Part shown: positions 3,642 through 63,200 of the stretch, in pieces
Layout: every line of letters begins with the position of its first letter
Numbering within the stretch: the stretch's first letter is position 1
DNA from: Lantana camara
Lineage: Eukaryota > Streptophyta > Magnoliopsida > Lamiales > Verbenaceae
Direction of reading: 5' to 3'
DNA length: 64,000 nucleotides
Assembly: GCA_037501455.1 (NCBI GenBank)
Contig: CM074860.1
Coordinates: 24,139,001 to 24,203,000, forward strand
Notes under the pieces: model-generated
Seen by the model: the letters and a program-made list of their open reading frames with translations, nothing else
Told to the model about the DNA's origin: nothing
The model's database searches: none
Position numbers and translations under genes: made by a program

Positions 3642-3843
3642 GGGAATGGCCGTTCCGCCCCTTAGTTCAAAATGGGAAGGGCCGTTCCCAGTTCCCCGAA
3701 GTTGCTCCCCGAAGATGGGAATGTCCGTTTCCGTCTGTGAGACAAAGTGGGAACGGTTGTTCCCATCCTCGCCGCCTAGCACACATTTCAAACATGGGAA
3801 CGACCGTTCCCCAAATACAAAGGGAACGGGAAGGGCCGTTCCC
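3642..3843. repeat. Array of six GGGAACGGCCGTTCCC-type palindromes
   Basis: Six copies of a 15-16 bp dyad start at 3642, 3674, 3718, 3749, 3796 and 3828. Each has GGGAA and TTCCC arms around a CGGCCG-like centre with small deviations. The intervening sequence is not repeated. The same array, better conserved, occurs in the LTRs at 51394-51620 and 55330-55556. Confidence 0.85.
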
Positions 3844-4494
3844 GTTACGCAGGAGATGTAGAAAACAGAGCAGAAGAACAGGGGAAGCACGAACACAATC
3901 AAATCTCCACAAAACACTTCATAACTCAATCTCAAATGCAGGAATTCATGAAGTAAACATACTAGCATACTTAATATACAATAAAATCCATCATAAAAAC
4001 CTAAAATATGCCTTAATCCCCAAAATCATCAACTTTCCTCCAAAGAAGAACTCATCAAATATTTCCCTAAATCTCAAGAGTTATGCATGAAATTCAAGGT
4101 TAAAGCTTAGAATCATGCTTTTAACAACTAAAACACAAGTTATTACATCAAGATCATAACCCTAACTTCAAGCTCTAATTCAAGAATTAACATATATAAT
4201 CATATATATACCTTGAAATGAAATTAAATGGAAAAGGATGATGGAGAGGAAAGATGAAGCTCCAAATTCCTAATTTTCTTGAAAAAACTTGATTGATTTA
4301 ATGAAATCTTCTCTTCCCTTCTTGATGTTTTTGGCTCGGTGGAAAGGAGCATAAATGGATGATGATTTTTGATAGAAAATAAAAGGAAGATTATAGAAGA
4401 GATGTGTATACCGTAATGCATCTCTGAAAAGAGATGAATCCCCATATTTTGCAATTAAATCCTCCAACTCTCACTACAAGAAATTCTGCAAATT

Positions 4495-4890
4495 CCGATG
4501 GGATTCCGACGGAATTTGTTTTTTTTTTTTAAATAAAAATTAAATAAATCCGACGGAAATTCTGTCGGAATTCCATCGGATTTTTAAAAAAATAAAATTA
4601 AAAATAATATTAAATAACTCCGACGGAATTCCGATGGGATTCCCGTCGGTTTTTTAAATATAAACTATACAAATAGAAATTAAATAATTCCGACGGGCAT
4701 TCCGTCGGAATTTTTAAAAATAAAAATTAAAAATAATATTAAATAATTCCGACGGAAAATTCCGTCGGAATTCCGTTGGATTTTTTTAAAATAAAAATTA
4801 AAAATAATATTAAATAATTCCGTCGGATTTTTTAAAAATAAAAATTAAAAATAATATTAAATAATTCCGACGGGATTTCCGTCGGAATTC
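4495..4890. repeat. Left subterminal repeat field of the CACTA element
   Basis: About six units of TTCCGACGGAATTCCGTCGG-like palindrome alternate with an AT spacer of the form AAATAAAAATTAAAAATAAT. The period is roughly 60-80 bp. Confidence 0.8.
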
Positions 4891-5052
4891 CGTCGGTTTT
4901 ATCTATGCTTAAATTGCATTCTTATGACGTATTATAATATTTGTAGTTATAATTAATATTTTCTTAGAACTCAATTTTAAATATAGTCTACAAAATTTAT
5001 GATTTTATTATTTCAAATGATATATAAATATTTGTATCAAACTAAACTAATG

Positions 5053-5151
5053 AATTGATCTAGCTCAACTGGTGTACCTTGGTTTTCATAAGGTCTTCCT
5101 ACCGCGAGGTTCGGTGTTCGAATCCCCAGTGGCTCATTAAGTTTTTTTTTT
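5053..5151 (+). ncRNA. Degenerate tRNA-like Pol III unit inside the CACTA element
   Basis: Box A-like TAGCTCAACTGG is at 5061-5072 and box B-like GTTCGAATCC at 5116-5125. A run of ten T (5142-5151) immediately follows and would stop Pol III. An anticodon-like stem CCTTG/TAAGG with a 7-base loop can be drawn between the boxes. The D-stem and acceptor stem do not pair well, so it is not a functional tRNA. It may be a tRNA pseudogene or the head of a tRNA-derived SINE captured by the CACTA element. Confidence 0.4.
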
Positions 5152-5156
5152 CCAGT

Positions 5157-5510
5157 AAATTCCGACGGAATTCCGAGGGAAATTCCGTCGGAAATAATTA
5201 ATTAAAAAAAATTTTAAAGCAAATTCCGACGGAATTCCGAGGGAAATTCCGTCGGAAATAATTAATTAAAAATTTTTTTAAAGCAAATTCCGACGGAATT
5301 CCGAGGGAAATTCCGTCGGGAGATATATTTTATTTTTTCAAAAATACGACTATTCCGACGGGATTTCCCTCGGAATCCCGTCGGAATTATTTTAATTTAA
5401 ATTTTTTTTTTTGTTTTGTCCCTCGGTTTTCCGTCGGTTTTCCGTCGGTTTATAAATTCCGATGAGGGTTTTTCCAACGGACTGTGTCCCGTCGGAATTC
5501 CGGGAATTTC
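5157..5510. repeat. Right subterminal repeat field of the CACTA element
   Basis: Three near-perfect tandem units of about 62 bp (5157-5320) each contain two TTCCGACGGAA/TTCCGTCGGAA dyads around TTCCGAGGGAA. They are followed by looser copies up to the terminal inverted repeat. Confidence 0.8.
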
Positions 5511-6747: not shown

Positions 6748-6749
6748 CT

Positions 6750-8692: not shown

Positions 8693-8707
8693 GATACTGC
8701 CGGAGCC

Positions 8708-10806
8708 CATAACATGAATCAAGAACAATATTTTGCTTACATAATCCAGAATCAGCGTATTGATAAAGTGGACTTAAAATATATAATGTCCTAGTAGAAC
8801 GTTGATTCTAGCATGAAAGTATTTTCCCATTGAAGGGGATTCGATAATATGATATTATATATGCAGGATCGTAAATCATAAATAATAGGTAGGATTGAAA
8901 ACCATTTTATATATAGATACATATATATAGGCATGATTCCAGTTGAAAATATTTTAACCGTCACCTATACCGGTAGTCAGACATTGTAGTGTGGATTCCA
9001 GTGCGCCTGAAAGTATTAACTACTATAGGCTTAGAAGTAGGTTCCTTATTTTAATCAAATAAGCACATAAAACACATAATGTTCATGCATAAAAGGATTA
9101 CACATTATTCTAATCAAGTAAACACATAAACTATATCATGTTAGAGAATTCCCAATAAACTCTAATTTTAACCGTTTAAGGGAAATTAAGTAATTAATCA
9201 AGTTTCATGAATTCTTTAACCACTTAATTATTTATTAATCACATTATAATCCTAATTAGAACATTAGAGATGAAATTTAGAATTTAATTTCACAATGTAG
9301 GTTATATTTTAAAAATAATTCACAATTTATCGATTATTGGAAAATTCGGAAAAAATCTTTATTTAGAATTTCCACAACTAATTTTATAATTATTTTAATA
9401 ATATTTTCGAAATATTCCGCTTATGGGTAGACCAAAAAGTCAAAATTACTATTTAAAACATTTACTATTCAAATTCTTAAGAATTAAACATCTTATAACA
9501 TAAAATCAATCTCACACGCACACACACTAGCACACGGTCCACACATTGATCCAAGAACATCAAGAATATATTCTTAAGTCTATTTGAATATTCAAAGGAG
9601 GTGTATAACATACTTGATCATATTCATATTTGTAACATAGAATTTGAAGCATAATATAGCAAAATATATAAATTCTCTATGAAAATTAATTCATAATTAA
9701 ATTCTCTAAACATGCATTTGTTCTAACATTCAAGAACATGATTATGAATATTCAAACACATATTTAAATAAATTCATATAATAAACATGCATTTCTTAAT
9801 TTAAATTTCCTAACTCTATTTCATGAAAATAAATTCCTAAAGCATAATTCTCTAACATAATTTAAAACATATAAAATATAAATTAAATTGCATAATTTAA
9901 ATATAAAATAAAGCATAAAAGAAAACATAATTTAAAGCATAAAATAAACTAACCTTGAGGGATTTGGAGGGGGGATTTCGTGAGGCTTAGGGGGAGAGAG
10001 GAGAGTGATTTTTGTGTGTTGATTGGTGAGTTTAGAAATGACTCCTATGGGGGGTATTTATAGGTGGTAAGGTGGGGTCCTAGTGCAATTTCTAAGAGTT
10101 AGCAAGAGATGTGGAAGATTTCTAACTCACATATTTGTATGGAATTTTAGTAAGAAATGTGGAATATTTCTCATTCATACAAATATATGGTATTCTTGTA
10201 GGAAATGTGGAAAAACCCTAACTTGCACAATGTATGGAATTCTTGTAAAAGATGTGGAAGAATTACATTCACATCTCTAAACTTTCTATTTTTAGAAATT
10301 CTATTTTAGGAAAGTTAGGTCATGAATGGTGTCATGGTAAATAAAAATAAATATAAATTAATGTAAAATTTATTCAAGAGTCGAGAAACGAGAACTTAAA
10401 GTAGTAAAAATAATGAAAGAATGAGTGAAAAAAAATAAGCTTCGTTATGATTATAAATGTGGAATATTTAGGTTTTCCGTTTACAAGTCATAAAAGTTAA
10501 AGATGATAAAAAAATCATGGTAAAATTATATAAACGAAGCTGTGACGAAGTTTAAAGGTTGGAAAAATTATCATAGCTTAGAGAAAAATTCAAGAAACGT
10601 TTTAAGTAAAATTTTGAATATTAAATGAAAGCTAATTGTTTAAAATAAAATAATAATTTTTTAAAAGGGAAAATATTTATAAAATATGCTACGATTGGAA
10701 TCAAGTTTTGGTAAATGCATGAAAATTCATAAAATAATTCAAGGATCATTTTTACTATAATATTGTATAAGGCAAATGTTAGAATTCGGAAATCCCTCAA
10801 TTAGGG
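8708..10806. repeat. Tandem copy A of the 2.1-kb LTR segment
   Basis: It begins CATAACATGAATCAAG and is 2099 bp from the start of copy B. It carries private differences from copies B and C. These include an extra TAATTTAAATA stretch near 9893, GTCCTAG for GTCTTAG at about 10077, and CACAATG for CACAATTG near 10228. Confidence 0.9.
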
Positions 10807-12890
10807 CATAACATGAATCAAGAACAATATTTTGCTTGCATAATCCAGAATCAACGTATTGATAAATTGGACTTAAAATATATAATGTCCTAGTAAAACG
10901 TTGATTCTAGCATGAAAGTATTTTCCCTTTGAAGGGGATTCGATAATATGATATTAGATATGCAGGATCGTAAATCATAAATGATAGGTAGGCTTGAAAA
11001 CCATTTTATATATAGATACATATATATAGGCATGATTCCAGTTGAAAATATTCTAACCCTCACCTATAGCAGTAGTCAGACATTGTAATGTGGATTCCAG
11101 TGCGCCTGAAAGTATTAACTACTATAGGCTTAGAACTAGGTTTCTTATTTTAATCAAATAAACACATAAAACACATAATGTTCATGCATAAAAGGATTAC
11201 ACGTTATTCTAATCAAGTAAACACATAAACTATATCATGTTAGAGAATTCCCGATAAACTCTAATTTTAACCGTTTAAGGGAAATTAAGTAATTAATCAG
11301 GTTTCATGAATTCTTTAACCACTTAAATATTTATTAATCACGTTATAATCCTAATTAGAACATTAGAGATGAAATTTAGAATTTAATTTGACAATGTAGG
11401 TTATATTTTGAAAATAATTCACAATTTACCGATTTTTGGAAAATTCGGATAAAATCTTTATTTAGAATTTCCAAAACTAATTTTATAATTATTTTAATAA
11501 TATTTTCGAAATATTCCGCTTATGGGTAGACCAAAAAGTCAAAATTACTATATAAAACATTTACTATTCAAATTATAAGAATTAAACATCTTATAACATA
11601 AAATCACTCTCACACGCATACACACAAGCACACGGTCCACACATTGATCCAAGAACATCAAGAACATATTCTTAAGTCTATTTGAATATTCAAAGGAGGT
11701 GTGTAACATACTTGATCATATTCATATTTGTAACATAGAATTTGAAGCATAATATAGCAAAATATATAAATTCTCTATGAAAATTAATTCATAATTAAAT
11801 TCTCTAAACATGCATTTGTTCTAACATTCAAGAACATGATTATGAATATTCAAACACATATTTAAATAAATTCATATAATAAACATTCATTTCTTAATTT
11901 AAATTTCCTAACTCTTTTTCATGAAAATAAATTCCTAAAGTATAATTCTCTAACATAATTTAAAACATATAAAATATAAATTAAATATAAAATAAAGCAT
12001 AAATTAAAACATAATTTAAAGCATAAAATAAACTAACCTTGAGGGATTTGGAGGGGGGATTTCGTGAGGCTTAGAGGGAGAGAGGAGAGTGATTTTTGTG
12101 TGTTGATTTGTGAGTTTAGAAATGACTCCTATGGGGGGTATTTATAGGTGGTAAAGAGGGGTCTTAGTGCAATTTCTAAGAGTTAGCAAGAGATGTGGAA
12201 GATTTCTAACTCACATATTTGTATGGTATTTTAGTAAGAAATGTGGAATATTTCTCATTCATACAAATATATGGTATTCTTGTAGGAAATGTGGAAAAAC
12301 CCTAACTTGCACAATTGTATGGAATTCTTGTAAAAGATGTGGAAGAATTACATTCACATCTCTAAACTTTCTATTTTTAGAAATTCTATTTTAGGAAAGT
12401 TAGGTCATGAATGATGACATGGTAAATAAAAATAAATATAAATTAATGTAAAATTTATTCAAGAGTCGAGAAACGAGAACTTAAAGTAGTAAAAATAATG
12501 AAAGAATGAGTGAAAAAAAATAAGCTTCGTTATGATTATAAATGTGGAATAATTAGGTTTTCCGTTTAGAAGTCATGAACGTTAAAGATGATAAAAAAAT
12601 CATGGCAAAATTATATAAACGAAGCTGTGACGAAGTTTAAAGGTTGGAAAAATTATCATAGCTTAGAGAAAAATTCAAGAAACATTTTAAGTAAAATTTT
12701 GAATATTAAATGAAAGCTAATTGTTTAAAATAAAATAATAATTTTTTGAAATGGAAAATATTTATAAAATATGCTACGATTGGAATCAAGTTTTGGTAAA
12801 TGCATGAAAATTCATAAAATAATTCAAGGATCGTTTTTACTATAATATTGTATAAGGAAAAGGTTAGAATTCGGAAATCCCTCAATTAGG
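10807..12890. repeat. Tandem copy B of the 2.1-kb LTR segment
   Basis: It is joined head-to-tail to copy A at the sequence TTAGGGCATAAC, where both parents carry GGGC or a close match, so the junction shows microhomology. Copy B is closer to copy C (14816-16900) than to copy A. Confidence 0.9.
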
Positions 12891-13110
12891 GCAAAACTAG
12901 GGTTTTATGACCGGTTTTGGTTACTACGGGAGTTACGATGAGGATTAAGGTTTGAGAATGATATCAGAATTCATAAAATTTTGTAAGGATTCATTTGAGC
13001 CGAATACTGGATAGGCAAAGGTGGCTTGGAAAATTTATACGTTTAGGAATAAATAGTGAATACGGACTTTAGAAAGAATTCTTCTTGGCCCCGAAATCCG
13101 GGATGTTACA

Positions 13111-13126
13111 ATCCACCCCCCTTAAA
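13111..13126 (-). other. Polypurine tract of the non-coding element
   Basis: The minus strand reads TTTAAGGGGGGTGGAT directly before the LTR start TGTAACATCCC. This is the expected site for plus-strand DNA priming. Confidence 0.85.
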
Positions 13127-13877
13127 GAGAATTTATCCTCAGATTCTACTCATATTTCATAATACCTTCCGGTGATGTTTGTATCCTCTTATCAATGATA
13201 AGACAGGTTTCCAAAGGAGAGCTTACTTTAAAACATAAGGCAATTGTTCAAGTAAGAAATTGAAATGCACACATAAGTGATGTAATAAATGCATGGCGCC
13301 AGCATCAGTAATTGGCGTGTTTAGAATGCGTACCTTTAACAACTTTGGGGATGACAATTTTAAACTGCAACCACCCTTATAGAGATATATAATGCATGAT
13401 AGTTGAGAATGATGTGCAGATGATCACAAAATTAAAATTTCCAAGTAGGAGCAATTAACAGACACAACATCTTTAGCATATATAAAGGCACAGGAAATTA
13501 ATAGGTTAGTTTTCGGTCCTACTGGTATCTTGAAGAAATTCTAATAACTTAAAATTTGAACGAATTAGAAAGTGTAAGTGAAGTTTTTTCATGAGTTAGG
13601 AATGCTAGTATGATGAAGGAAATGTAGATCTTGTAACCAAATCTACCAACAACTTGATAATTGTGAAGAGTACTGAAGGATTTGATAGAACTCGGGATTT
13701 TGGTGTGGATTAAGACTGTATGCTTGACTTCATCGAGGAAGGGTTTAGTACTACATTTGTAACAAATCACATGCTGATCGGCCATCCCAACAGTGATTGA
13801 TCATAATATAAGCACTAAAGACACGAGAGTACATATGAGACTCTATGAATGATGAACCCCAGATTTCCGCAACCAGC
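13127..13877 (-). mobile_element. Very short non-coding interior of the minus-strand element
   Basis: Only about 0.75 kb separates the polypurine tract from the PBS. There is no Gag, protease or polymerase motif in any frame. A 78-codon minus-strand frame at 13549-13785 has no recognisable domain. With LTRs of about 3.2 kb, this element is almost entirely LTR, in the manner of LARD/TRIM-type non-autonomous elements but with unusual proportions. Confidence 0.8.
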
Positions 13878-13890
13878 GGCTCTGATACCA
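13878..13890 (-). other. Primer binding site of the non-coding element
   Basis: The minus strand reads TGGTATCAGAGCC, seven bases from the 5' LTR edge at 13898. It matches initiator tRNA-Met. Confidence 0.9.
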
Positions 13891-14815
13891 CTTTAATTGT
13901 AGCGCCTCCCCAGCACTACAACCCCGCACCGCAATACTCCCTGAGTGGAGGTTAGACCTAACACTCAAGAAATACTACGTCGAACGGTCAGGATAATATA
14001 TGAATGTAGTATATGTCATAGTGCAGCGGAAGATAAAAAGATTCAACTTTACCAATGAACGGGGAGGATAATGTACAATGAGCAAGGATTATCATTATTG
14101 ATCAAAGTAGTTCGCAAAAGAGTACTACAGGTTAACATGTAAGGACAAAGTATGAGATAGTTTGTTTTTACAGAGAGTAGGCTCAAGACAGTGTACTTTT
14201 AGGATCGGATCCAACCTACTGTTGTAAGGCTTCAAGATACCTCTAGTTGTCGTTCATTAATTCCTGAAATCATGCATTTTAAAATAAGCGAGAGGGTTAG
14301 TCAAAGTGACTAAGTGAAGGGGGTATGAGGGTTTATAGATATATGTATATATTTATATATTTATATGATCAAGAAAATCTTGATCTACAATATTAACAAT
14401 AGGAAATAGCAAATATGGAACGGTTCATGATATGTGTAAAACAGGGATAGGGGTAGTTTGGAATATTTGTAGAAGTATGAACCGTTTGTAACAAGAACAT
14501 TAATGTCCACAAGATAGGCCTCTCCATCCATAACTCCTTAAATAATTGGTAAAATAGTATCGGGCTGATCAAGGTACCGATACTTCAATAAAACCAAGAA
14601 TGTTAACTCCACTACTCCTTGATGTCAATAGGGAATCAAACCCTAGAGACCACGAACACGATTCGGGAGGTAGCTATCTCTCCCTCATCCCTTGGCGTGG
14701 AGTAACTAACCCCCAGTTAAACCACTACCAAGATGTGGTGGCAGTCCGCAGCACGAACAATACCCTCGGCCCGATAACTTCTGGGTACTTGTTCGCTACG
14801 GATACAACCGGGGCC

Positions 14816-16900
14816 CATAACATGAATCAAGAACAATATTTTGCTTGCATAATCCAGAATCAACGTATTGATAAATTGGACTTAAAATATATAATGTCCT
14901 AGTAAAACGTTGATTCTAGCATGAAAGTATTTTCCCTTTGAAGGGGATTGGATAATATGATATTAGATATGCAGGATCGTAAATCATAAATAATAGGTAG
15001 GCTTGAAAACCATTTTATATATAGATACATATATAAAGGTATGATTCGAGTTGAAAATATTCTAACCCCCACCTATACCAGTAGTCAGACATTGTAATGT
15101 GGATTCCAGTGCGCCTGAAAGTATTAACTACTATAGGCTTAGAACTAGGTTCCTTATTTTAATCATATAAACACATAAAACACATAATGTTCATGCATAA
15201 AAGGATTACAAGTTATTCTAATCAAGTAAACACATAAACTATATCATGTTAGAGAATTCCCGATAAACTCTAATTTTAACCGTTTAAGGGAAATTAAGTA
15301 ATTAATCAGGTTTCATGAATTCTTTAACCACTTAAATATTTATTAATCACGTTATAATCCTAATTAGAACATTAGAGATAAAATTTAGAATTTAATTTGA
15401 CAGTGTAGGTTATATTTTGAAAATAATTCACAATTTACCGATTTTTGGAAAATTCGGATAAAATCTTTATTTAGAATTTCCAAAACAAATTTTATAATTA
15501 TTTTAATAATATTTTCGAAAGATTCCGCTTATGGGTAGACCAAAAAGTCAAAATTACTATTTAAAACATTTACTATTCAAATTCTTAAGAATTAAACATC
15601 TTATAACATAAAATCAATCTCACACGCACACACACTAGCACACGGTCCACACATTGATCCAAGAACATCAAGAACATATTCTTAAATCTATTTGAATATT
15701 CAAAGGAGGTGTGTAACATACTTGATCATATTCATATTTGTAACATAGAATTTGAAGCATAATATAGCAAAATATATAAATTCTCTATGAAAATTAATTC
15801 ATAATTAAATTCTCTAAACATGCATTTGTTCTAACATTCAAGAACATGATTATGAATATTCAAACACATATTTAAATAAATTCATATAATAAACATTCAT
15901 TTCTTAATTTAAATTTCCTAACTATTTTTCATGAAAATAAATTCCTAAAGTATAATTCTCTAACATAATTTAAAACATATAAAATATAAATTAAATATAA
16001 AATAAAGCATAAATTAAAACATAATTTAAAGCATAAAATAAACTAACCTTGAGGGATTTGGAGGGGGGATTTCGTGAGGCTTAGAGGGAGAGAGGAGAGT
16101 GATTTTTGTGTGTTGATTTGTGAGTTTAGAAATGACTCCTATGGGGGGTATTTATAGGTGGTAAAGAGGGGTCTTAGTGCAATTTCTAAGAGTTAGCAAG
16201 AGATGTGGAAGATTTCTAACTCACATATTTGTATGGTATTTTAGTAAGAAATGTGGAATATTTCTCATTCATACAAATATATGGTATTCTTGTAGGAAAT
16301 GTGGAAAAACCCTAACTTGCACAATTGTATGGAATTCTTGTAAAAGAGTTGGAAGAATTACATTCACATCTCTAAACTTTCTATTTTTAGAAATTCTATT
16401 TTAGGAAAGTTAGGTCATGAATGATGACATGGTAAATAAAAATAAATATAAATTAATGTAAAATTTATTCAAGAGTCGAGAAACGAGAACTTAAAGTAGT
16501 AAAAATAATGAAAGAATGAGTGAAAAAAAATAAGCTTCGTTATGATTATAAATGTGGAATAATTAGGTTTTCCGTTTAGAAGTCATGAACGTTAAAGATG
16601 ATAAAAAAATCATGGCAAAATTATATAAACGAAGCTGTGACGAAGTTTAAAGGTTGGAAAAATTATCATAGCTTAGAGAAAAATTCAAGAAACGTTTTAA
16701 GTAAAATTTTGAATATTAAATGAAAGCTAATTGTTTAAAATAAAATAATAATTTTTAAAAGGGAAAATATTTATAAAATATGCTACGATTGGAATCAAGT
16801 TTTGGTAACTGCATGAAAATTCATAAAATAATTCAAGGATTGTTTTAACTATAATATTGTATAACCAAAATGTTAGAATTCGGAAATCCCTCAATTAGGG
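14816..16900. repeat. Copy C, the single copy of the 2.1-kb segment in the 5' LTR
   Basis: It is the equivalent of copies A and B in the partner LTR. It shares with B, against A, the shorter AAATTAAATATAAAATAAAG tract and the spellings GGTATTTTAG and GTCTTAG. Confidence 0.9.
16185..16368. repeat. Four-unit minisatellite upstream of the LTR TATA box (also 10091-10278 and 12175-12358)
   Basis: About 50-bp units share AAGAAATGTGGAA near their start and a CATAC or CACAT block downstream. Each unit therefore holds a spaced ATGTG...CACAT-type dyad when read on the minus strand. The open frame through this stretch, with four CG-aromatic repeats, follows from the tandem DNA repeat and is not taken as a gene. 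Confidence 0.65.
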
Positions 16901-17119
16901 TAAAACTAGGGTTTTATGACCGGTTTTGGTTACTACGGGAGTTACGATGAGGATTAAGGTTTGAGAATGATATCAAAATTCATAAAATTTTATAAGGATT
17001 GATTTGAGCCCAATACTGGATGGGTAAAGGTGGCTTGGAAAATTTCTACGTTTAGGAATGAATAGTGACTACGGACTTTAGAAGGAATTCTTCTTGGCCC
17101 AAAGATCCGGGATGTTTTA

Positions 17120-42024: not shown

Positions 42025-42639
42025 TCAGCATAACATATCACTTACATCCCGATCATACGTACACGCTCATACATATAACCACTTACCACTTACAACCCGG
42101 TGACATGTACACGCTCATAGGTATCATCACCTGCGTACACATCGCATACACATACACACACACGTACACCCACACATCACACACTCATAAAGCATAATCA
42201 TACTCATATATCTAGCATAAACATAACCTAGCATATCATAATCTAATATATTCGCATCTCTAACATGAGCATAGCATACATAGCATAAGCACCTCCTAAC
42301 TAGATCTTAGTCACAACCTAATCATAACATACTTTTGTTCATGATTCTAGCATACTCGTATTCTAAAATAATCACACTCTAACATATTCATATTCCTAGC
42401 TTATTCACATGCATAGCATACCGGATTCTTAGCATATTCCTGTTCTAACATAATCATAATCTATAGAATACAACATAATCACACATATTCATAGGGTTTA
42501 TATTCACATGCATACATATCAATCACGTTTCATTAGGGTTTAACTATAACCTAACCTCACCTGGCACGAAGAAAGCCAAACCCAAAGCAAATGGTCTACC
42601 CCGGAACCTGCATGACCCACTGTCACCACCCCGGGTGCA

Positions 42640-46242: not shown

Positions 46243-46272
46243 CGGGAGAGAGAGAGAGAGAGAGAGAGAGCT
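46243..46272. repeat. GA/CT microsatellite
   Basis: About fourteen GA units. On the minus strand it is a (CT)n tract of the kind seen in plant 5' leaders. Confidence 0.9.
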
Positions 46273-47297
46273 GGGTCTGATGTTCTGGCACATAAAACGA
46301 GGATTCGGGTCTTTTATCTCGGGTCCTCGTGCACAAAACGATTAGGAGGAAAGGCTAACGATGTCAGAATTGGGCAAACTTAGAGTCTACGGACTCGTTT
46401 CGATTCTCCGAATGTGTTGAATGGGTCAAAAAGGTCAAAATGTCAATCGAACGAGTAGTGACCGAAAAACCCCCTAAAAAGAGAAAATTACAACCAAGCC
46501 CCTAAACTCTCAAAGAGTTCAAAATAGGGCCACTTAAATCACAAAATCACATAATTAAACACACAAGGAACTCGAAAGGTGGCGTACCTTATACGTCGAA
46601 CGAGCGGGATGTTACAGTTATAGTTAAACCCTATGATATGTGCTCGTTTTCTATGCATGCGAACTATAACCTTAAGTATAAGTAAATATGTGAGGATACG
46701 TAAATTTGAGACTTGGCTAAGTATTTGCAAGTATGATACTCTATGTACAAGCGTATGTATGCTTGTTCTACCTTGATATTATTCTTTCAGTTTGGCACCC
46801 TAAAACTATGCTTCAACCCATGCACCTTCTATGAGCCGGGAGCTACAAGCTATGGATACGTTACTGATTTGGCACGGAGAGGTATGTATAGTATAGTTAT
46901 CGCAAGGTAAGATTGTTATGTAAGTTATGTTCAGTAGCTGGCTATGTATTGCTTTGTACTTGTACGTATTGGTATTATTTATTAGGCCACGGAGCCTGCG
47001 ACTCAGGACGCCCGGTATGGTAGCGGGCCTTCGGGTTAAGCCTGAGCGTAGTCTCCACCTTTATAGGACTAACCCGAAACCTGGCCAGGAGGTTTGGTAA
47101 GGGGATGGGACCCTGAGGGTTGAGTGTGCGCACTCCCCTCTTTCATACGTATGGTTAGGGTCGCGCAACCTTCCATCACCGGAGAAGGAGGTTATTCTGT
47201 AAGTATGTTATTTGTTTATTTACCTTATATGTATGATTAGTCGGAGGAGCCCAGGATGGGATTAGGTACTCGTACCCGCCGAGTATGTATGTATGTA

Positions 47298-50036: not shown

Positions 50037-52404
50037 TGTAACACCCGAAGCGCAAAGGTGTCACATCCCCCGCACTAGAGCCCAGTCCATATATGAAACG
50101 GTCAATCCATACATGAACTGAGCCATAGCGAACGGGTGATAAGAAAATAAATGCTAACTAGCTAGGCGGGACTAACCCCAAACCAATTACCACAACAGGA
50201 AATAAACTGAAGTGCGTTAAGAACAAGTCTTTAACAAGCAAACTATTCTAATCCTATCAATACATTGTCATCTCTCAAATACATAACATTTCATAAAACA
50301 GTAGATAACAATACATATGCCAAAGTAGGATGGACACGTGTTAGACCCGAAATGAAAGACTTGACGCGACACCAATCCCGCCTAGCACACAACCTGCAAA
50401 ACTGAAAGGTGAGGTGTCAGTCTCTACAAGACTGAGCGAGGGGCATAATAATTTATAAGCGCAGATAACATGCACGTCATAACCTCGGGTAAGGTTTTAT
50501 AGACAAAAACAATCTAAGTTCAATAACAACATAAAGCTCGCCCGAGATTACAACTATCAGATTTAACAATCAATTATTTCAATCAATCAATCAATCAGTG
50601 GCCCGGCGAGTGAGGGCATTCTCCAACCTTACTCCGACAGTGTACAATCACGATACCTTTCATTAATTAATTAAGTGATCACACAATAAATTATAGTGCA
50701 CACGTAGCAGTTTCAATAACTCCTTCTTCCTCCAATGATGGTGGGTTTGCAAGGCCCGATCCATCCACGGTAAACACGGTGTACGTCGGGAACATGACTC
50801 CCACGCACGGGACTCCTTCCTCCACCAAACCTCCTGGTGGATTCAGGGTTCATCCCCACGGTAGAGAGGAGTGTAAGAGTTACCTGTCAGCCCATGCTTT
50901 CCCGGTTGGCTCAAACACTAACTCTCGGGCCCACAGTGCACGATACAGTATACTCGCCCAAAACACGGTCAATCAATACAATACAATTCGGTAAATCAGT
51001 TGCAATTCAATAGAGTTTGGAAAACTATAGATATATATACCTTTTGGCTTAAAACATCACATAGGGTTGTAATGGTTCTAGATAACTAGCAATTAAACCT
51101 CACCTGTACCGACAAAACAAAGAGAAAGGCACGGCCTAAGAAGCCCACTCCACGTCACTGGCGTGCCGGTCTGTGCAACAAAGACAAGTGTACATAACAC
51201 ACGACTCAAAATGTACCAAATAGGACGAACGGCGAAATGCAACGAGACGACGAGTATGATGCAATGTACCATGAAAATATCTTGTTTCACTTCATTTTAG
51301 ATCATATAATATCAAATCGGGGTCAAAGAAGCCGTTGGAACGAGGTGTTAGAAATGCAATTTTATGCAGAATATTTTGTTCTGTCAGACGCATGGGAACG
51401 GCCGTTCCGGCTTCCCTTTGAAAATGGGAAGGGCCGTTCCCGTGGCCCTTCAAAACGCACCAGCGTTTTCTCAAAACAAAACACGCTTTGGCTGGGAACG
51501 GCCCTTCCGGCTAGCAGGCCAAAGTGGGAACGGCCGTTCCCAGTCTCGCTGGCCTAACCACACTCAGAAGCCTGGGAACGCCCGTTCCCAAAATGCACTA
51601 AGGCGGGAACGACCGTTCCCAGTTTCTGGACATAACAGAAACAGAGCAGTTATGCAGGGGAGAACGAACCAAAACCAAAACTCCACAAATGATCATATAC
51701 CAAACTCCAAAGGCATATAATTCATGAAATAAACATGCTTGCATACTTATAGTTCAATAATAACTCATTTAAACACTTAAATCCATGCTTAATCATCAAA
51801 AATCAACAAGATCAAACCCACAACAAACTCATGCTCCAAGCTTATAAACTCCACAATTTATGCATCAAATCATAGCTAGAACCATGTAATCATGCTTTCA
51901 ACAACTCAAACATCATTAGGCAAGCTTAAACCATAGCCCTAGCTCTCATATATATTCATGTATTTCCCCAACTAGAAGCTCATACCTTGAATGAATGAAA
52001 AGAAGGAAAAGAGATGATGTTGGGATGATGATGATGCTTCAATTTATGCAAATAACCCTTGAATTCAAGCTTCCAATGAAGAATCCTCTTCTTTCTTCTT
52101 GCTCGGTTGAACGAGATGAGGGAGAGAAGGGAGGGATCAAGTGTGCATATGTTTGATGCAACCAAAGGATATATGCTAGATATTATAATGCTAAACACAA
52201 TTTGCAATTTAATCCCTCCAAAACATTAGTCATGCAATCAAGTTCAATCCCATGCAAAATGATCAATTAAGTCCAAGACTATTTCATGCAATTAGGTCAT
52301 CAATTTAATAAAATGACCACTTAAGGACAATTATGCAATTAAACAATTAAGTCATATTTGGAAATTAATTCACATATTGCATAATTGAAAATTGGGGCGT
52401 TACA
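50037..52404 (-). mobile_element. 3' LTR of the gag-only element
   Basis: The plus-strand edges are TGTAACACCCGAAGC and GGGGCGTTACA. It sits beside the PPT, so it is the 3' LTR. Donor-like TTCAAG|GTATGA (GT at 51985) and acceptor-like CAGTTTTGCAG|G (50394) are about 1.6 kb apart and bracket the array 51394-51620. Confidence 0.95.
51394..51620. repeat. Array of six GGGAACGGCCGTTCCC palindromes
   Basis: Units lie at 51394, 51426, 51495, 51526, 51574 and 51605. The fourth is the perfect 16-bp palindrome; the others differ at one or two central or edge positions. Spacing is 31-69 bp. Confidence 0.92.
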
Positions 52405-52423
52405 ATCACCCCTCCTTAAGAGG
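52405..52423 (-). other. Polypurine tract of the gag-only element
   Basis: The minus strand reads CCTCTTAAGGAGGGGTGAT immediately before the LTR start TGTAACGCCCC. Confidence 0.9.
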
Positions 52424-52752
52424 ACCTGGTCCCCAGGTCCACTGCTCGAACTATAAATTAAAACACGTGACGAGAGAACCCCGTCTCTCCAAACAATTAA
52501 TGAGAAAACCCCGTTTCTCCACACACAAGAGAGCACCCCGACTCTCGAGCAAAGAAGAGAGCACCCCGTCTCTCACACAACCACACCACGTACAAACTTA
52601 AATAATCACATACATGTACCAGCACATATGAAGCAAGTAGGGAGAACAACACTTCAATTACTCACACAAGATCAAATAGCAAACACAAGGAATACCATAT
52701 ATAAAATAAGAAAGCATATGATGCCCGTGATATGCATGATTAGATGTACCGT
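52424..52752 (-). other. 3' untranslated interior of the gag-only element
   Basis: Between the gag stop and the PPT there is no coding sequence. Four spaced copies of a GAGA(C/A)GGGGT(G/T)(C/T)TCTC-like dyad (plus-strand 52470-52580, AGAGCACCCCGTCTCTC type) form another small array of self-complementary motifs. Confidence 0.6.
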
Positions 52753-53718
52753 TCACCGTTGTTCTTGCCTGTTAAATGGTCGTTGACCCCCGGTGGATAG
52801 TTCTTGTCGCTCCGGACATGTATCTATCTGATGCTCAGCACTCCCACAACGGAAACATAGACGCAACCGCTTCCTACAACCATCATAAGTGTGGGTGTCG
52901 CGTCCACAATAAGTGCAGAGAGGTTTTTCTGGAGATTGTGACAAAGCCGGTTTAGGTGGAGTTTTCTGAATCGATCCCGCTCGTGAGGTAGAACTCCTAG
53001 CATTGACGGCGTCCTCAACTTTCAAAGCTTTGCTAGTAGCTTTGGCCCACGTGCTTATATTGACCGCTTCTAATGCCTCCTGTATGTCCGGTCGAAGCCC
53101 TTGCACAAACTGCATTGCCTTATGAAAGTCATCACTCGCTATATTAGGTGCATAGCGAGACAGCCTCTCATACTCGGATATATACTCCGAAACTGACATC
53201 CTTGCTTGCCTTAACTCGGTAAACTCCTTCAATCTCCTAGTACGCGCTGAGGGAGGAATGAACTTATTCTTAAACTCTCGAGTAAATACCTCCCAATTTA
53301 TCTCCTCCCCGGTGGCCTCCAACACTATCTTAGTACTTTCCCACCAAGAGTAAGCCTCTCCTTGGATCAATGTAATGGTGCAACGAGCTTTCTCTCGAGA
53401 CTCACATGGTATAAGCTCCCAAATTCTCTCTACTTCCTTTAACCACATCTCCGCCTCGGTATCATTGCCATGGAAGAATTTAGGAGGGTGTTGATTCTGG
53501 AATTCCCGAAGTATAGTTGAGATAGGTGCTTCTAATTGCACCGGTGGAGCAGGCGGTGCAGGAGTAACATGCTCTCTCATCCTCTGATCTATAAGGCCAA
53601 CCACAGCATTCATGAAGTCCTGTGGTTGAGCTGGAGGGGGTGGTGATCTCTCTCGATGATGATGCCGACGATGGCGATGTCCCGGAGAACGATCACGATG
53701 AGGACGACCTCGGTGCAT
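52753..53718 (-). CDS. gag: Gag polyprotein of the gag-only retrotransposon
   Basis: An intact frame of 321 residues should form the virus-like particle that packages element RNA in the cytoplasm. Residues 1-27 are an Arg/His/Ser-rich head (MHRGRPHRDRSPGHRHRRHH) followed by a Pro-rich stretch. The retrotransposon Gag fold spans about 70-220, with the blocks AEMWLKEVERIWEL, GEAYSWWEST, WEVFTREFKNKFIP, EYISEYERLSRYAPNI and FVQGLRPDI. Two CCHC zinc knuckles follow at about 271-284 (CTYCGRDTHTYDGC) and 292-305 (CFRCGSAEHQIDTC), both with complete CX2CX4HX4C spacing for RNA binding. The start is the first ATG after the leader. No protease, RT, RNase H or integrase follows, so helper enzymes in trans are needed. 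Confidence 0.95.
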   Translation of the reverse strand: MHRGRPHRDRSPGHRHRRHHHRERSPPPPAQPQDFMNAVVGLIDQRMREHVTPAPPAPPVQLEAPISTILREFQNQHPPKFFHGNDTEAEMWLKEVERIWELIPCESREKARCTITLIQGEAYSWWESTKIVLEATGEEINWEVFTREFKNKFIPPSARTRRLKEFTELRQARMSVSEYISEYERLSRYAPNIASDDFHKAMQFVQGLRPDIQEALEAVNISTWAKATSKALKVEDAVNARSSTSRAGSIQKTPPKPALSQSPEKPLCTYCGRDTHTYDGCRKRLRLCFRCGSAEHQIDTCPERQELSTGGQRPFNRQEQR

Positions 53719-53952
53719 CCTGTAACCTAAGACACTAAGGATGCATGTTGAATTAGTGGATGCTAATGGTTACAAATAAGTCTCAAGTCACAAATAATTC
53801 ACATAATTCAAAGACTTCAAGTTATTCAAATACTTCAAATAAGTCAAATAATTTCAGTTAAAGATGCAAGACTCTCAAGTTGACAATTAATTCCTATGCC
53901 GCACGACCTAGACTCGACTCGACACGACACTAAAGACCCGGTTTTGCAACCG

Positions 53953-53965
53953 GGCTCTGATACCA
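53953..53965 (-). other. Primer binding site of the gag-only element
   Basis: The minus strand reads TGGTATCAGAGCC, matching initiator tRNA-Met, seven bases from the 5' LTR edge at 53973. Confidence 0.93.
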
Positions 53966-53972
53966 CCTAAGA

Positions 53973-56340
53973 TGTAACACCCGAAGCGCAAAGGTGTCAC
54001 ATCCCCCGCACTAGAGCCCAGTCCATATATGAAACGGTCAATCCATACATGAACTGAGCCATAGCGACCGGGTGACAAGAAAATAAATGCTAACTAGCTA
54101 GGCAGGACTAACCCCAAACCAATTACCACAACAGGAAATAAACTGAAGTGCGTTAAGAACAAGTCTTTAACAAGAAAACTATTCTAATCTTATCAATACA
54201 TTGTCATCTCTCAAATACATAACATTTCATAAAACAGTAGATAACAATACATATGCCGAAGTAGGATGGACACGTGCTAGACCCGAAATGAAAGACTTGA
54301 CTCGACACCAATCCCGCCTAGCACACAACCTGTAAAACTGAAAGGTGAGGTGTCAGTCTCCACAAGACTGAGCGAGGGGCATAATAATATATAAGCGCAG
54401 ATAACATGCACGTCATAACCTCGGGTAAGGTTTTATAGACAAAAACAATCTAAGTTCAATAACAATATAAAGCTCGCCCGAGATTACAACTATCAGATTT
54501 AACAATCAATTATTTCAATCAATCAATCAATCAGTGGCCCGGCGAGTGAGGGCATTCTCCAACCTTACTCCGACAGTGTACAATCACGATACCTTTCATC
54601 AATTAATTAAGTGATCACACAATAAATTACAGTGCACACGTAGCAGTTTCAATAACTCCTTCTTCCTCCAATGATGGTGGGTTTGCAAGGCCCGATCCAT
54701 CCACGGTAAACACGGTGTACGTCGGGAACATGACTCCCACGCACGGGACTCCTTCCTCCACCAAACCTCCTGGTGGATTCAGGGTTCATCCCCACGGTAG
54801 AGAGGAGTGTAAGAGTTACCCGTCAGCCCATGCTTTCCCGGTTGGCTCAAACACTAACTCTCGGGCCCACAGTGCACGATACAGTATACTCGCCCAAAAC
54901 ACGGTCAATCAATACAATACAATTCGGTAAATCAGTTGCAATTCAATAGAGTTTGGAAAACTATAGATATATATACCTTTTGGCTTAAAACATCACATAG
55001 GGTTGTAATGGTTCTAGATATCTAGCAATTAAACCTCACCTGTACCGACAAAACAAAGAGAAAGGCACGGCCTAAGAAGCCCACTCCACGTCACTGGCGT
55101 GCCGGTCTGTGCAACAAAGACAAGTGTACATAACACACGACTCAAAATGTACCAAATAGGACGAACGGCGAAATGCAACGAGACGACGAGTATGATGCAA
55201 TGTACCATGAAAATATCTTGTTTCACTTCATTTTAGATCATATAATATCAAATCGGGGTCAAAGAAGCCGTTGGAACGAGGTGTTAGAAATGCAATTTTA
55301 TGCAGAATATTTTGTTCTGTCAGACGTATGGGAACGGCCGTTCCGGCTTCCCTTTGAAAATGGGAAGGGCCGTTCCCGTGGCCCTTCAAAACACACCAGC
55401 GTTTTCTCAAAACAAAACACGCTTTGGCTGGGAACGGCCCTTCCAGCTAGCAGGCCAAAGTGGGAACGGCCGTTCCCAGTCTCGCTGGCCTAACCACACT
55501 CAGAAGCCTGGGAACGCCCGTTCCCAAAATGCACTAAGGCGGGAACGACCGTTCCCAGTTTCTGGACATAACAGAAACAGAGCAGTTATGCAGGGGAGAA
55601 CGAACCAAAACCAAAACTCCACAAATGATCATATACCAAACTCCAAAGGCATATAATTCATGAAATAAACATGCTTGCATACTTATAGTTCAATAATAAC
55701 TCATTTAAACACTTAAATCCATGCTTAATCATCAAAAATCAACAAGATCAAACCCACAACAAACTCATGCTCCAAGCTTATAAACTCCACAATTTATGCA
55801 TCAAATCATAGCTAGAACCATGTAATCATGCTTTCAACAACACAAACATCATTAGGCAAGCTCAAACCATAGCCCTAGCTCTCATATATATTCATGTATT
55901 TCCCCAACTAGAAGCTCATACCTTGAATGAATGAAAAGAAGGAAAAGAGATGATGTTGGGATGATGATGATGCTTCAATTTATGCAAATAACCCTTGAAT
56001 TCAAGCTTCCAATGAAGAATCCTCTTCTTTCTTCTTGCTCGGTTGAACGAGATGAGGGAGAGAAGGGAGGGATCAAGTGTGCATATGTTTGATGCAACCA
56101 AAGGATATATGCTAGATATTATAATGCTAAACACAATTTGCAATTTAATCCCTCCAAAACATTAGTCATGCAATCAAGTTCAATCCCATGCAAAATGATC
56201 AATTAAGTCCAAGACTATTTCATGCAATTAGGTCATCAATTTAATAAAATGACCACTTAAGGACAATTATGCAATTAAACAATTAAGTCATATTTGGAAA
56301 TTAATTCACATATTGCATAATTGAAAATTGGGGCGTTACA
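53973..56340 (-). mobile_element. 5' LTR of the gag-only element
   Basis: 2368 bp, colinear with 50037-52404 at an offset of 3936. It has the same donor-like and acceptor-like sites (the acceptor is TTTTACAG|G here) and the palindrome array at 55330-55556. As the 5' LTR it should supply the promoter for gag. Confidence 0.95.
55330..55556. repeat. Palindrome array, 5' LTR copy
   Basis: Same six units as 51394-51620. The third differs by CTTCCAG for CTTCCGG, a CpG transition in the flank. Confidence 0.92.
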
Positions 56341-58518: not shown

Positions 58519-58738
58519 GGGGAGACACGCCCGGGTCTCCCTATTGGCTTGTTGGGTGCCACAGCCGTGTATGGCCGTGGGTTTCGAAGATTTGGCCCTC
58601 TGTACTAAGACATGACCGTGTCTCAGTTTGGGCATTGAGGGAGATACGGCTGTATCTCTCTGGAATCCTCGAGCCTCTGTACCGAGCCACGATCGTGGCT
58701 TAGTTTGTTCTTTTGGGGAGGCACCCCCTTGTCTCTCT
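58519..58738. repeat. Array of GAGACACGGCCGTGTCTC-type palindromes (E2 3' LTR)
   Basis: About six degenerate units, including GGAGACACGCCCGGGTCTCC, GAGATACGGCTGTATCTC and GAGCCACGATCGTGGCTT. Compared with the 5' LTR, substitutions sometimes change both arms (ACGG...CCGT to ACGG...CTGT with GATAC/GTATC), which keeps the dyad. Confidence 0.82.
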
Positions 58739-60220
58739 TTTTTGTGTGGAGTTGTGTGCTTTGTTCCATTTCGTATGTTTGTTATAAGGTTTTATCCCTT
58801 CCTAAGCATGATCCTAATGTCATTTACGATATAATATACGTATAAATTGATAAGGTATAATTCGTTTTATGATTTTATGGTGTACCTTGAGTGTTTAAAC
58901 GTGTTACGTGTTCCTATATGAATAAATGCTACTATATGCATTATATATGTACGTGTTTGCATTAATTGTGCACATGAACATCTCTTGAGGTGTTTCATGG
59001 TTGTATTATGCTTTGATATGTCTTTTTTTTTGCTTGAAATTCATTTGCTTATGAGCTTTGCCTATAGTTTGCATCTCTTACGTGCCTATGCATAAGCCAT
59101 GCGTCTATGTGGTTCGTCTTTGAGTCGAAGTCTGTGTTTTGTCTTCAGTTTGTTCAGGCGCACCTGGGGTGGTGTCCCGTTGGCCGTGTTAATCTCGGGG
59201 TGGATCATTCTTCATGTTCGGTTTTTGTTGGTGTAAGGTGAGGTTAGGTTATAGCTAAACCCTATGATATGTGCTCATTTTCTATGTATATAAATTATAA
59301 CATTAAGTATAAGTAAATATGTACGGATATGTAAATTTGAGACTTGGCTAAGTATTTGCAAGTATGATACGCTATGTACAAGCCTATGTATGCTTACAAG
59401 CCTATGTATGCTTGTTCCGCCTTGATATTATTCGTTCTGTTTTGCAACCTAAAACTATGCTTTAAACCGTGTGCCTCCTATGAGCCGAGAGCTGCAAGCT
59501 ACGGATACGCTATGGATTTGGCACGGAGAGGTATGTATAACATAGTTGTTGCAAGGTAAGATTTTTATGTAAGTTATATTCAGTAGCGGGTTATGTATTG
59601 CTCTGTATTTGTACGTATTGGAATTAATTGTTGGGCCCCGGAGCCTGCAAACACCCGGTACTACAGCGGGCCGTCGGGTTAAGCCTGAGTGTAGTCTCCA
59701 CCTTAATAGGACTAACCCGTAACCCGCACAGGAGGTTTGGTAGGGGGATGGGACCCTGAGGGTAGAGTGTGCGCGCTCCCCTCTTCTGTACGGATGGTTT
59801 GGGACGCTCAACCCTTCCATCACCGAGGAAGGTGGTTATTCTGTAAGTATGTTATTTATGTATTTGCCTTGTATGTATGATTATTTGGAGGAGCCCAGGA
59901 TGGGATTACGTACTCGTACCCGCCGAGTATGTATGTATGTGTGCTCTGTTAGCGTTTGTGAAACGGGGGTAGCTTTATAATTAAGATAAAATATGAATCT
60001 TTTGAAAGTATAAGCTAAGATATGATTTGATTTGATCTGATTTGATAAGATTTGATCTGTAAGATACCTAAGGATTTGTTAAGTTAAGTTTGTTTTGTTT
60101 TGATAAGAAACCCCTGTATGTATCTATCACTGGAAATGTTTTAGTGTGCAAAAACTATCCCTGAGTTCATGAACATTATGTGTTGTACATGCTTTGCTCT
60201 ATACGTATGCTGTGTGTGTG

Positions 60221-63200
60221 TGTAACATCCCGACTTTCAGGTACGCCCTTACGGGTGTGATACGTGTGCAATTTAATTATTTACTTATACAATTATGTGA
60301 TACTATAACGTTTATATGATTATTTGAACCTATTTGAAATTATTTGGCTAAGTATGAATTTATGCTCTTTATGCCTTATAATCTGCTCTATTTGTATCTG
60401 AATTCAATTATGTTTCTTGTGAATTTTTTATATGCGAGTATTACATGAGTTATGAACTTGATTATATGCTCGTTATGTGATTTTCAATTTATTTGATTTA
60501 GTTTTGGCTCGTTTTTGTTTTACGGGACCTAAAGGGGGCTAAAGGGCATTTAGCGCACCTTGGGTTTTGGGCGGCGTATCCTGAGTTCGGGAATTCGGAT
60601 TCAAATTCTGTCAACTTCGTTGGACTTGTATCAATGATTCGGGTTTAATGAACCAAGCCTCATATTTTTCTAAGCCCATTTAGACCTCCGAAATTCCACC
60701 GAAATGAGCACCTCGTACCAAAATGACCCCTTTTGACTAATTTTGAGTTTGTAGGACCATCTTAACCCCAATTAACCCCAAACCTTGACTAATATACCTT
60801 GGGTTAATCCTCCTTCTTCCCTTAACCCAGCCATTCAAACCACACCACCACAAGAGAAGGAAAATTCAGTTCCAAGAAGAAGAGAAGAGGAGAAGAAAAA
60901 GAACTATTGTAATTTTGATCCTTTGAGTTCAATACTCTTCCATACTTCATCATATCTCAAAGGTAAGTGTATTTTTGTAATCCTCACTCTTCTATGCTTC
61001 TTTTAATAGAAGAGTAAGGGTTTGGCATGAGCTTGGAATTATGCATGAATAGTAAGGGTTAGCTCTTATATCTGAAGCTTTACCTTAGCTTGAGATTGTG
61101 GCTGAATTAATGCATATTTGTTGATCATATGAGCTTGTTAACTTCACTTCTTGACACTTAACACTTGGTGGTTATGTAATAAGGGATATGCCATTAACGA
61201 ACTTGAGTTAAAACTTGGAAGAAACTTGGAATTCTTGTTATATTTCATGAACTTATGCATGTTTCCAATTGATGGTTGATTGTATAGCTTGAATTCATGC
61301 CTTTTGTGAGTTATTTGTTGTTGTTGTTGTTCTTTTACTCCTTTTCTTCCTTTCTTTTTGTTACTGCTACGTTGAAGTTGAAACAGAGGAAGATCTTAAT
61401 GGCTTCTGCTCGAAAATGAAGCTGCCAGGGGTAACGGGCGTTACCCCGATTCCTCTACAAGAGAGTAATGTCCGTTACTCTTCTTTCTTGCGAGACTGCC
61501 TCCATTAATGGGGGTTAAGCTTTTTGTACTAAAGCTTGGTAACCCACGTTACCTCCTTGAAGAGCTGCTGCTGTGAACTTTAATGGGAGTCACTCCATTT
61601 GGCTTGGAAGGAGTGACCCCCGTTACCCTCCCTTTTGTGTGTAATGTTTGTATTATTTTGTTGATTAATGTTTACATTATATATATGAATTATATGCTTC
61701 TTTCATGTCCTAAATTACATTGTTAACATGTTAGATGATGTGTTATAATTTATGTTTTAATCTATAAACGTGATTTAAGTGCTCACATGCAAAGTAGGAA
61801 CTTATATGACCGAAGTTTGATTTCCTTGCATTTCATTTGCATCATTTACATTTATACACATTTGCCGAGTATTTATTTGGTACATTTTGAGTCTAAGAGT
61901 GTCCTTTGTTGTTTGTTTGGTACAACTAACCCTCCCGTTGATGACGAGGTTGATCCTTAGGCGTCCGATTTGCACTTTTGTCCCCGCTACACGCTTATTC
62001 AAGGTGAGGTTTTGTTCTTTTAGATATAATGACCTAAAACCTTACTTGTTTTGAATCCCGCGTGCGAGTTATGTATATTATACATTAGATACGTGTATGA
62101 TATGTACTTTGAGGGCTTGTCCCATTCGTTATAAGTCTTAAAAATTATTTATATACGTATGTAAGATATTTTACGTTTGATTTGAAACCCTTTGATACGT
62201 GTACTTGTGTAAGCGAGCTTTGAGCTTTGAAAGATAATCTTTGTTGGAAAATGTGATTTTGAACTATGATTCGGGCCCCAGGGAGTGGTATGGTATCTCG
62301 GGACGGCCGTGGGGTGGCCGAGCTCTTCCATCAACACTTTCCTTTGAGAGTTCCGCCTAACCTTGGGAGGTTGAGGAAGGGCATTGCTCTTGAGCCAGCG
62401 GAAGCAACCGTCGAAGGTTTCACGGACGTAATTAAGCCTTGTCTCGTGTGAATTTTTGATTGATAGTTAGGGCCGTCAACCCTTCTATCACCCGGAGAAA
62501 GGATGGTTCATGATTTGTATTTTTATTATGATTATGTTTTGTTAAGAGAAGTTGGAGGAATAACTCGTACTCGCCGAGTTGTGTGAATCCGTATGATCTA
62601 TGAAACGGGAATGGATTCCTAAATACCTAAAACTTGTCATTTTGGCCTATGGCCTTAACTTCTTTTAGGTATATATATTTATTACCACGGGAAATGTTTT
62701 AGCTTGCAAAAACCATCCTTGGTTCATGGATCTCTTTATGAATTTTGATAAGTGCTTTGCTTTATACCTATTATGGGTGCGTGTGTTAGCCCCCCACTAG
62801 TCATTAGGACTAACCCTCATTGTTGTTTCTTCCTTTTTCCCTTTCTTTTGAGCTGTAGGTACAGTCTGGGTCGAGTCTTCATATGCATTGTAGTGGCTTT
62901 GACTTTGATACTTATGATCTATTTTCGGAGACATGTATTATGAATACTTCGCTACACTTTGATACTTGTTCTATTTTTGGCCCCGGATGGGCGATGTGCA
63001 TTTGTATATAAATCTAACTTGCCAATATGGATTTATTTTGATGTATATGTTGATCTTTGGATTTTGATATGACTGTTTAATCGCTTCCTCTATATTTTTG
63101 ATTTGATATGCACTCTGACTGAGGGGTCTAGGCCGCCTAGCTAGTGTGTGAGTTTTGTTTGTCACCCATTCGCTATTGTTTGATGCGTCTACATACCTTC

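Follow-up and report, generated by a model that had tools for sequence, protein, structure and literature searches.

The 64,000 nucleotides of Lantana camara DNA analysed here (assembly GCA_037501455.1, contig CM074860.1, positions 24,139,001 to 24,203,000 of the forward strand; hereafter the window) contain ten arrays of short dyad-symmetric motifs, lodged in the long terminal repeats (LTRs) of retrotransposons which, judging from the domains they encode, are Ty3/gypsy elements. Within an array the dyads are set in pairs, referred to here as couplets. All ten arrays had been listed by an initial annotation of the window, and all ten are present where it had located them. In window positions they are:

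3640–3845, minus strand: array I, three couplets with GGGAAC arms, in an LTR related to that of element A (about 66% identical)
18165–18293, plus strand: array F, two degenerate couplets with GGTCGC arms, palindromes not above shuffles
27452–27578, minus strand: array G, two couplets with the last dyad decayed, arms CTACCC/GGGTAG, 3′ flank homologous to that of F
38470–38683, minus strand: array D, three couplets with GGTAAC arms, one dyad being AGGAAC/GTTCCT
40375–40590, plus strand: array E, three couplets with AGACAC-type arms, in an LTR piece 87% identical to B
43568–43711, plus strand: array H, two couplets with CTACCC arms, one of them with a 17-bp tandem insertion
51392–51622, minus strand: array A2, the A1 array again, in the 3′ LTR of element A
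55328–55558, minus strand: array A1, six dyads forming three couplets, arms GGGAAC/GTTCCC, in the 5′ LTR of element A
58521–58736, plus strand: array B, three couplets with AGACAC-type arms, spacing 34
61428–61629, plus strand: array C, couplets with GGTAAC arms in solo LTR C, four of six slots found and two decayed

The unit of these arrays is a dyad with complementary arms of 6–8 bp flanking a 4-bp, often asymmetric centre. In the nine distinct window arrays, A2 being omitted as a duplicate of A1, there are 45 dyads read in element sense (six each in I, A1, D, E and B, four each in F, H and C, three in G). Counted from the inside out, the first seven arm positions form Watson–Crick pairs in 33, 42, 39, 36, 41, 32 and 28 of them, and beyond the seventh position pairing drops to 16, 20 and 15; in the centre, the outer pair is complementary in 31 dyads and the inner pair in only 16. 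GGCC is the commonest centre (11 dyads), with GGGC and CCCC in six each, GCCC in four and other sequences in the rest. The initial description of a constant centre with variable arms holds for the comparison between families and fails within most arrays, where it is the arms that are constant and the centre that varies; likewise, the supposed centring on CGGCCG, CGGGCG or CGCCCG, a CGG–CCG-like core that several families do keep, breaks down in the large ATCC..GGAT family found outside the window, the centre of which is GGGG or GAGG.

The symmetry of the arms is what is conserved. With array E excluded as a near copy of B, 235 of 312 arm positions are paired, as against 140 when arms are exchanged between arrays, and none of 5000 exchanges reached the observed value. 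The gain over re-pairing of arms within the same array is modest, amounting to 267 of 360 versus 251 (11 of 10,000 re-pairings reach the observed value) or, with 6-nt arms, to 223 of 270 versus 216 (141 of 10,000). That the sites are symmetric and diversify in their arms is thereby confirmed. The patches are GC-rich, six arrays having a GC content of 0.50–0.59 and a CpG observed/expected ratio of 0.56–1.24.

How far the palindromes exceed chance differs from array to array. When near-palindromes with 7-nt arms and at most one mismatch were counted against 1000 dinucleotide shuffles of each array, the observed number was reached by only 0–2 shuffles for I, A1, A2, G and E and, the excess being weaker, by 10 for D, 16 for B and 34 for C, whereas F (196) and H (193) showed no excess on this measure; with 8-nt arms and two mismatches allowed, H exceeds chance (3 of 1000) and F remains at it (478 of 1000). 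The excess over shuffled sequence is clear in five arrays, moderate in B, C and D, confined to the looser measure in H, and absent from F. A blind scan for clusters of at least three similar-armed dyads within about 300 bp found 15 clusters in the window (mean 0.92 and maximum 4 in 100 shuffles); its GC-rich clusters were reported arrays only, seven of the ten being recovered (F, H and I were missed), and the remaining clusters were AT-rich. Applied to 20 systematically placed 10-kb stretches of the genome, the same scan gave five GC-rich clusters, four of which were judged to be arrays of this kind, and none in five shuffled sets. An origin from microsatellites is rejected, the units being 16–20 bp dyads with differing linkers, and a tandem-repeat finder shows nothing at the arrays except the 17-bp duplication in H.

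The spacing of the motifs, on which the initial annotation was silent, follows a grid. It was established on 24 arrays, namely nine of the window and 15 genome loci carrying AGGTGAGGTT, the mark that sets the sense strand; 9 of the 20 loci of one genome set, together with L011 and L015, were excluded for want of AGGTGAGGTT near the array, and L005, L007 and A2 as LTR duplicates. Units were located with the consensus arms of each family under a single spacing rule, that they do not overlap. Measured start to start, 52 of the 108 gaps are 31–34 bp long, 6 fall at 35–40 bp, 35 at 41–54 bp, 15 are larger and none is below 31 bp; among successive gaps, the order is short–long in 35 cases, long–short in 24 and short–short in none. 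Among the matches listed genome-wide (100 places for each pattern), GGTAAC dyads show gaps of 34–35 bp (10), 79–83 bp (9) and 113–115 bp (5) out of 28 below 300 bp, and ATCC dyads gaps of 31–33 bp (40) and 38 bp (15) out of 67. The idea that couplets constitute larger palindromes is unsupported, 47 within-couplet linkers being self-complementary at 48 of 141 positions versus 47.8 after re-pairing; the 35 longer linkers display a weak excess (55 of 140 versus 39.5, reached by 8 of 3000 re-pairings).

Exact pattern matches in the 1.27-Gb genome, with reversed patterns as controls, show how abundant these families are: GGGAACGGCCGTTCCC occurs 15,128 times, GACACGGCCGTGTC 9,342 times and GGTAACGGGCGTTACC 4,421 times (2,344 + 2,077), and the reversed pattern is never found in any of the three cases. 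The genome has 20,128 pairs of CGGCCG at a distance of 20–50 bp and 577 such pairs of the reversed pattern; among the 50 matches listed, 16 have a spacing of 32 and several others are unrelated repeats, as at C1:1752670, where a separate repeat family has CGGCCG pairs 48 bp apart without complementary arms.

Arms are switched within arrays. In L004, L006, L039, L042 and L045, GGGAAC couplets and ATCC..GGAT couplets stand side by side on the same spacings, i.e., in 5 of the 15 distinct genome arrays, a proportion that does not represent a genome frequency, since 13 of the 15 loci, including all five mixed ones, were selected from a single chromosome by their match to a GGGAAC or CGGCCG pattern. 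Re-pairing the arms within each of these five arrays lowers the matching, the observed value being reached by 23 to 135 of 5000 re-pairings. Arrays F and G/H offer a further case, their 3′ flanks being about 70% identical (F–G 70%, F–H 69%) and their arms different (GGTCGC versus CTACCC). Gradual compensatory drift was not detected at position 4 of the GGGAAC arm: the genome holds 62 places with a single change there and none with a double one, beside 15,128 that are intact; in a mirror test of the same family (195 places), 98 of the 100 matches listed were perfect.

The elements and LTRs that host the arrays include the following:

25496–28540, minus strand: LTR G, 3045 bp
36865–39924, minus strand: LTR D, 3060 bp, followed by a primer-binding site
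50037–52404, minus strand: 3′ LTR of element A, 99.1% identical to the 5′ LTR, with the 5-bp target duplication ATAAC
52756–53769, minus strand: gag open reading frame (ORF) of element A, Ty3-type, the sole ORF of at least 150 aa in the 1.57-kb interior
53973–56340, minus strand: 5′ LTR of element A, 2368 bp
60221–63264, plus strand: solo LTR C, 3044 bp, with the target duplication GTGTG

Element A (50037–56340) is complete, bounded on both sides by ATAAC, and young in view of the identity of its LTRs; because it has no further ORF of at least 150 aa beside gag, its sequence suggests a non-autonomous element depending on an autonomous partner. The primer sites in element A and after LTR D we take to be of the iMet type. 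Four proteins of the window, among them the gag product of element A, match Retrotrans_gag, Ty3_capsid or RVP_2, and the genome element L004–L005, which carries a mixed array, encodes gag, an RVP_2 protease, RVT_1, RNase H, an integrase zinc-binding domain and SH3_Tf2-1, its match to the integrase core being below the cut-off. Given the Tf2-type SH3 domain (E 2.7e-26) and a chromodomain match that is below threshold (E 5.9e-4; 20.1 bits, where the curated cut-off is 25.1), L004–L005 is probably a chromovirus and may belong to the Tekay lineage. A homologous-protein search returned seven gag-like matches without informative names, and among viral contigs no relative of gag or protease was confirmed, three 16-mer matches being taken as chance. 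Solo LTR C sits, with its GTGTG duplication, inside LTR B, which continues from 63265. The region 41012–46616 is probably a solo LTR on the minus strand with a GTTAT duplication, split by a nested element carrying array H; its 5′ part is rich in CGG/GGC, yet the blind scan finds no dyad cluster there.

Within the LTR the arrays occupy a similar slot. In the six LTRs that could be measured (those of E, H and I having interrupted ends or ends that are not fixed), they lie at 785–1011, 850–1069, 1208–1411, 1242–1454, 826–949 and 965–1056 nt from the 5′ end, in keeping with the 0.8–1.4 kb reported at the outset. Alignments place a donor-like AG|GTAAGY before the array, matched in all six of these LTRs, with GTATGA in A, GTAACC in F and a GC variant in B; downstream of the array, AAG|GTGAGGTT comes after a YAG and its pyrimidine tract. 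Two instances are:

59140–59245, plus strand: putative internal exon in LTR B, with a pyrimidine tract, CAG, then AAG|GTGAGGTT
60960–60970, plus strand: putative first splice donor in LTR C, AAAG|GTAAGT, upstream of the array

The acceptor was assessed in 21 LTRs having the second donor (15 genome loci and six window LTRs) from the 12 bases preceding a YAG located 40–125 nt upstream of that donor. At least nine pyrimidines are present in 16 of the 21 LTRs versus 13.9% of 770 control windows, and at least eight in 20 of the 21 versus 25.6%; the best YAG lies 62–99 nt before the second donor in all except C, which fails with 6 of 12 pyrimidines. In a scan of six LTRs for the exact second donor, none was found in D and G. 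TATA-like sites, scanned for upstream of the array, are weak, being present there in five of six LTRs and not always before the donor. From these signals the arrays apparently lie within a predicted leader intron of the LTR. A 2025 review treats introns in plant LTR elements as exceptions (PMC12786077), and this leader intron, if real, would be an addition to the few known.

The initial annotation was aware of nothing comparable described for plant LTRs, a view that is wrong. According to Bousios et al. 2010 (PMC2829016), the repeated motifs in the LTRs of Sireviruses (Ty1/copia) are palindromic, clustered and present in many copies, have a CGG–CCG core in nearly all cases, form CpG islands shortly upstream of the TATA box and were suggested, without a test, to be regulatory; in maize, later papers cite these palindromes as small-RNA hotspots and as cis-regulatory (PMC5311732, PMC10760457). 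The Lantana arrays share with them the clustering of short palindromes in the LTR, the family-specific arms, the several copies per LTR, the GC-rich patch and the short symmetric unit with intervening bases. They differ in that the host is a Ty3/gypsy element, the gag, capsid and integrase domains placing it outside the genus Sirevirus; in that the array is downstream of a putative first splice donor, the Sirevirus motifs being upstream of a mid-LTR TATA box; in the couplet grid, which does not appear in what was seen of the 2010 description; and in that one large arm family lacks the CGG–CCG core. The anti-silencing motifs of VANDAL elements, recognised by VANC, are likewise family-specific arrays in non-coding parts of plant transposons, introns included, that turn over as tandem repeats (Hosaka et al. 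2017, PMC5735166); unlike the dyads, those motifs are described there as short, of a single orientation and bound by an element-encoded protein. No such gene was found in element A, gag being its only ORF of at least 150 aa, autonomous elements not having been searched for additional genes. Packaging and dimerisation hairpins of retroviruses are structured RNAs retained only in unspliced genomic RNA. The same is reported of the MusD/IAP transport elements (PMC12786077); these hairpins and elements are one compact domain, unlike the many short repeated dyads found here. In the accessible portions of the open-licence literature on LTR palindromes and motifs, no description of palindrome arrays in Ty3/gypsy LTRs was found; within the reach of that search, what is new is the Ty3 host, the couplet grid, the arm switching within arrays and the location downstream of a putative splice donor.

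What might such a structure be for? The alternative put forward initially, either a dimeric binding partner or hairpins of RNA, is reasonable as a choice between two candidate readings, since arm pairing exceeds that of both exchanged and re-paired controls. The reading that we hold, tentatively and with something short of even confidence, is that Ty3/gypsy LTRs have in the array a cis-acting module consisting, most likely, of clustered DNA sites for a dimeric host protein or its paralogues. One dyad would be the site of one dimer, with two half-sites and a 4-bp spacer; a couplet would be a cooperative pair of sites about three helical turns apart; and two to five couplets could together form, in the leader that the LTR transcribes, an element resembling an enhancer or an anti-silencing sequence, through which any effect on transcription would be exerted. 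DNA sites are supported by the symmetry of the arms together with the lack of it in most of the central 2-bp pairs (16 of 45 symmetric), as for a spacer between half-sites; by the couplet spacing with its alternation of short and long gaps in the 24 arrays, recurring in the GGTAAC and ATCC matches listed genome-wide; and by the CGG–CCG core, reported for Sirevirus repeats, that several families keep. The mismatches of the window dyads in the sense strand, 11 G·U and 11 A·C, show no G·U excess, and sense RNA has a lower folding energy than antisense in 3 of the 13 arrays from the genome and in 6 of the 9 from the window, a lack of consistent strand bias that counts for DNA sites and against selection on RNA. 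Three observations weigh the other way: the five arm types (GGGAAC, GACAC, GGTAAC, CTACCC and ATCC) hardly fit one protein, so that several factors would be needed; the ATCC family varies almost solely on one arm and in a manner compatible with RNA pairing; and the gaps between couplets (38, 41–45, 47–48, 51–52 bp and others) are not all whole helical turns.

A function at the level of RNA, which we consider doubtful, would have the dyads form tetraloop hairpins in the leader intron of the unspliced genomic RNA, absent from spliced mRNA, so as to mark the full-length RNA for export, packaging or family-specific dimerisation, self-complementarity being kept while the arms are free to change. 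The location of the arrays between the putative first donor and the putative acceptor–exon–donor block is consistent with this, as is the occurrence of two arm types on one grid in the mixed arrays. Sense RNA of the nine window arrays folds with z values of −2.2 to −10.5, versus −2.8 to +2.1 for 36 flanking controls, as any palindrome would. In the ATCC family, the two inner positions of the 5′ arm are a purine and a pyrimidine in 14,862 of 15,008 dyads (99.0%), arms that pair with the fixed GTGGAT 3′ arm by Watson–Crick or G·U pairs in the sense strand, only 13 of the 100 matches listed being fully Watson–Crick; with the 5′ arm fixed as AC, the 3′ arm is unchanged in 96 of the 100 matches listed and changed in 4. 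Sense mismatches in 154 units, LTR duplicates included, number 38 G·U versus 32 A·C overall and 24 versus 2 in the ATCC family, but outside that family the bias is reversed (14 versus 30 in 129 non-independent units). Moreover, the ATCC variants may descend from a few amplified ancestors and their 5′ C belongs to a CpG, either of which could mimic RNA pairing. Since the three tests for selection on RNA disagree and such mimicry could occur, DNA binding by a dimeric factor is only slightly favoured over RNA hairpins, on conflicting evidence. The one-sided, G·U-compatible arm variation of the ATCC dyads (L004–L007, L039, L042 and L045; about 15,000 genome copies) is unlike the variation elsewhere. 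An unlikely extension of the hairpin reading is a kin-recognition signal, in which hairpin couplets of the LTR intron, free to diversify as long as they remain self-complementary, would let each family dimerise, export or package its own unspliced RNA, foreign couplets being insertable as blocks.

Quite unlikely, too, is that slippage, template switching or gene conversion creates and homogenises the palindromes as by-products of reverse transcription and recombination, the arrays being functionless or relevant solely because the host recognises hairpin small RNAs that they give rise to. Tandem duplication is indeed seen, both in the 17-bp duplication of H and in couplet-level blocks, and small RNAs map to the maize Sirevirus palindromes in the reports cited above (PMC5311732, PMC10760457); neutral homogenisation does not, however, predict that arm length, the 4-bp centre and couplet spacing should be identical across different arm sequences, nor that the slot of the array should be kept in LTRs otherwise diverged to about 66–79% identity. 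Palindromes of insertion sites are rejected, as PMC6911290 deals with 20-bp target sites and neither the C nor the D insertion falls within an array.

Palindrome arrays are thus not peculiar to Sireviruses, abundant Ty3/gypsy LTRs carrying them with a precise, arm-independent spacing, and whether LTR palindromes are protein sites, RNA hairpins or silencing bait becomes a directly testable question, for which the mixed arrays represent natural arm-swap experiments.

Arrays are not a property of every LTR family, the blind scan finding no GC-rich dyad cluster in the LTR repeats at 8.7–17.1 kb. The repeat there (8700–17116) is LTR-like but of a different type, is present three times in almost identical form and contains a 48-bp tandem repeat. 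In the one copy inspected, this tandem repeat is directly followed by a TATA box (CCTATAAATA) and by a candidate donor, CAAG|GTTAGT. At 4491–5451, MITE-like inverted repeats of the AATTCCGACGG type are nested in LTR I and give rise to palindromes that have nothing to do with the arrays.

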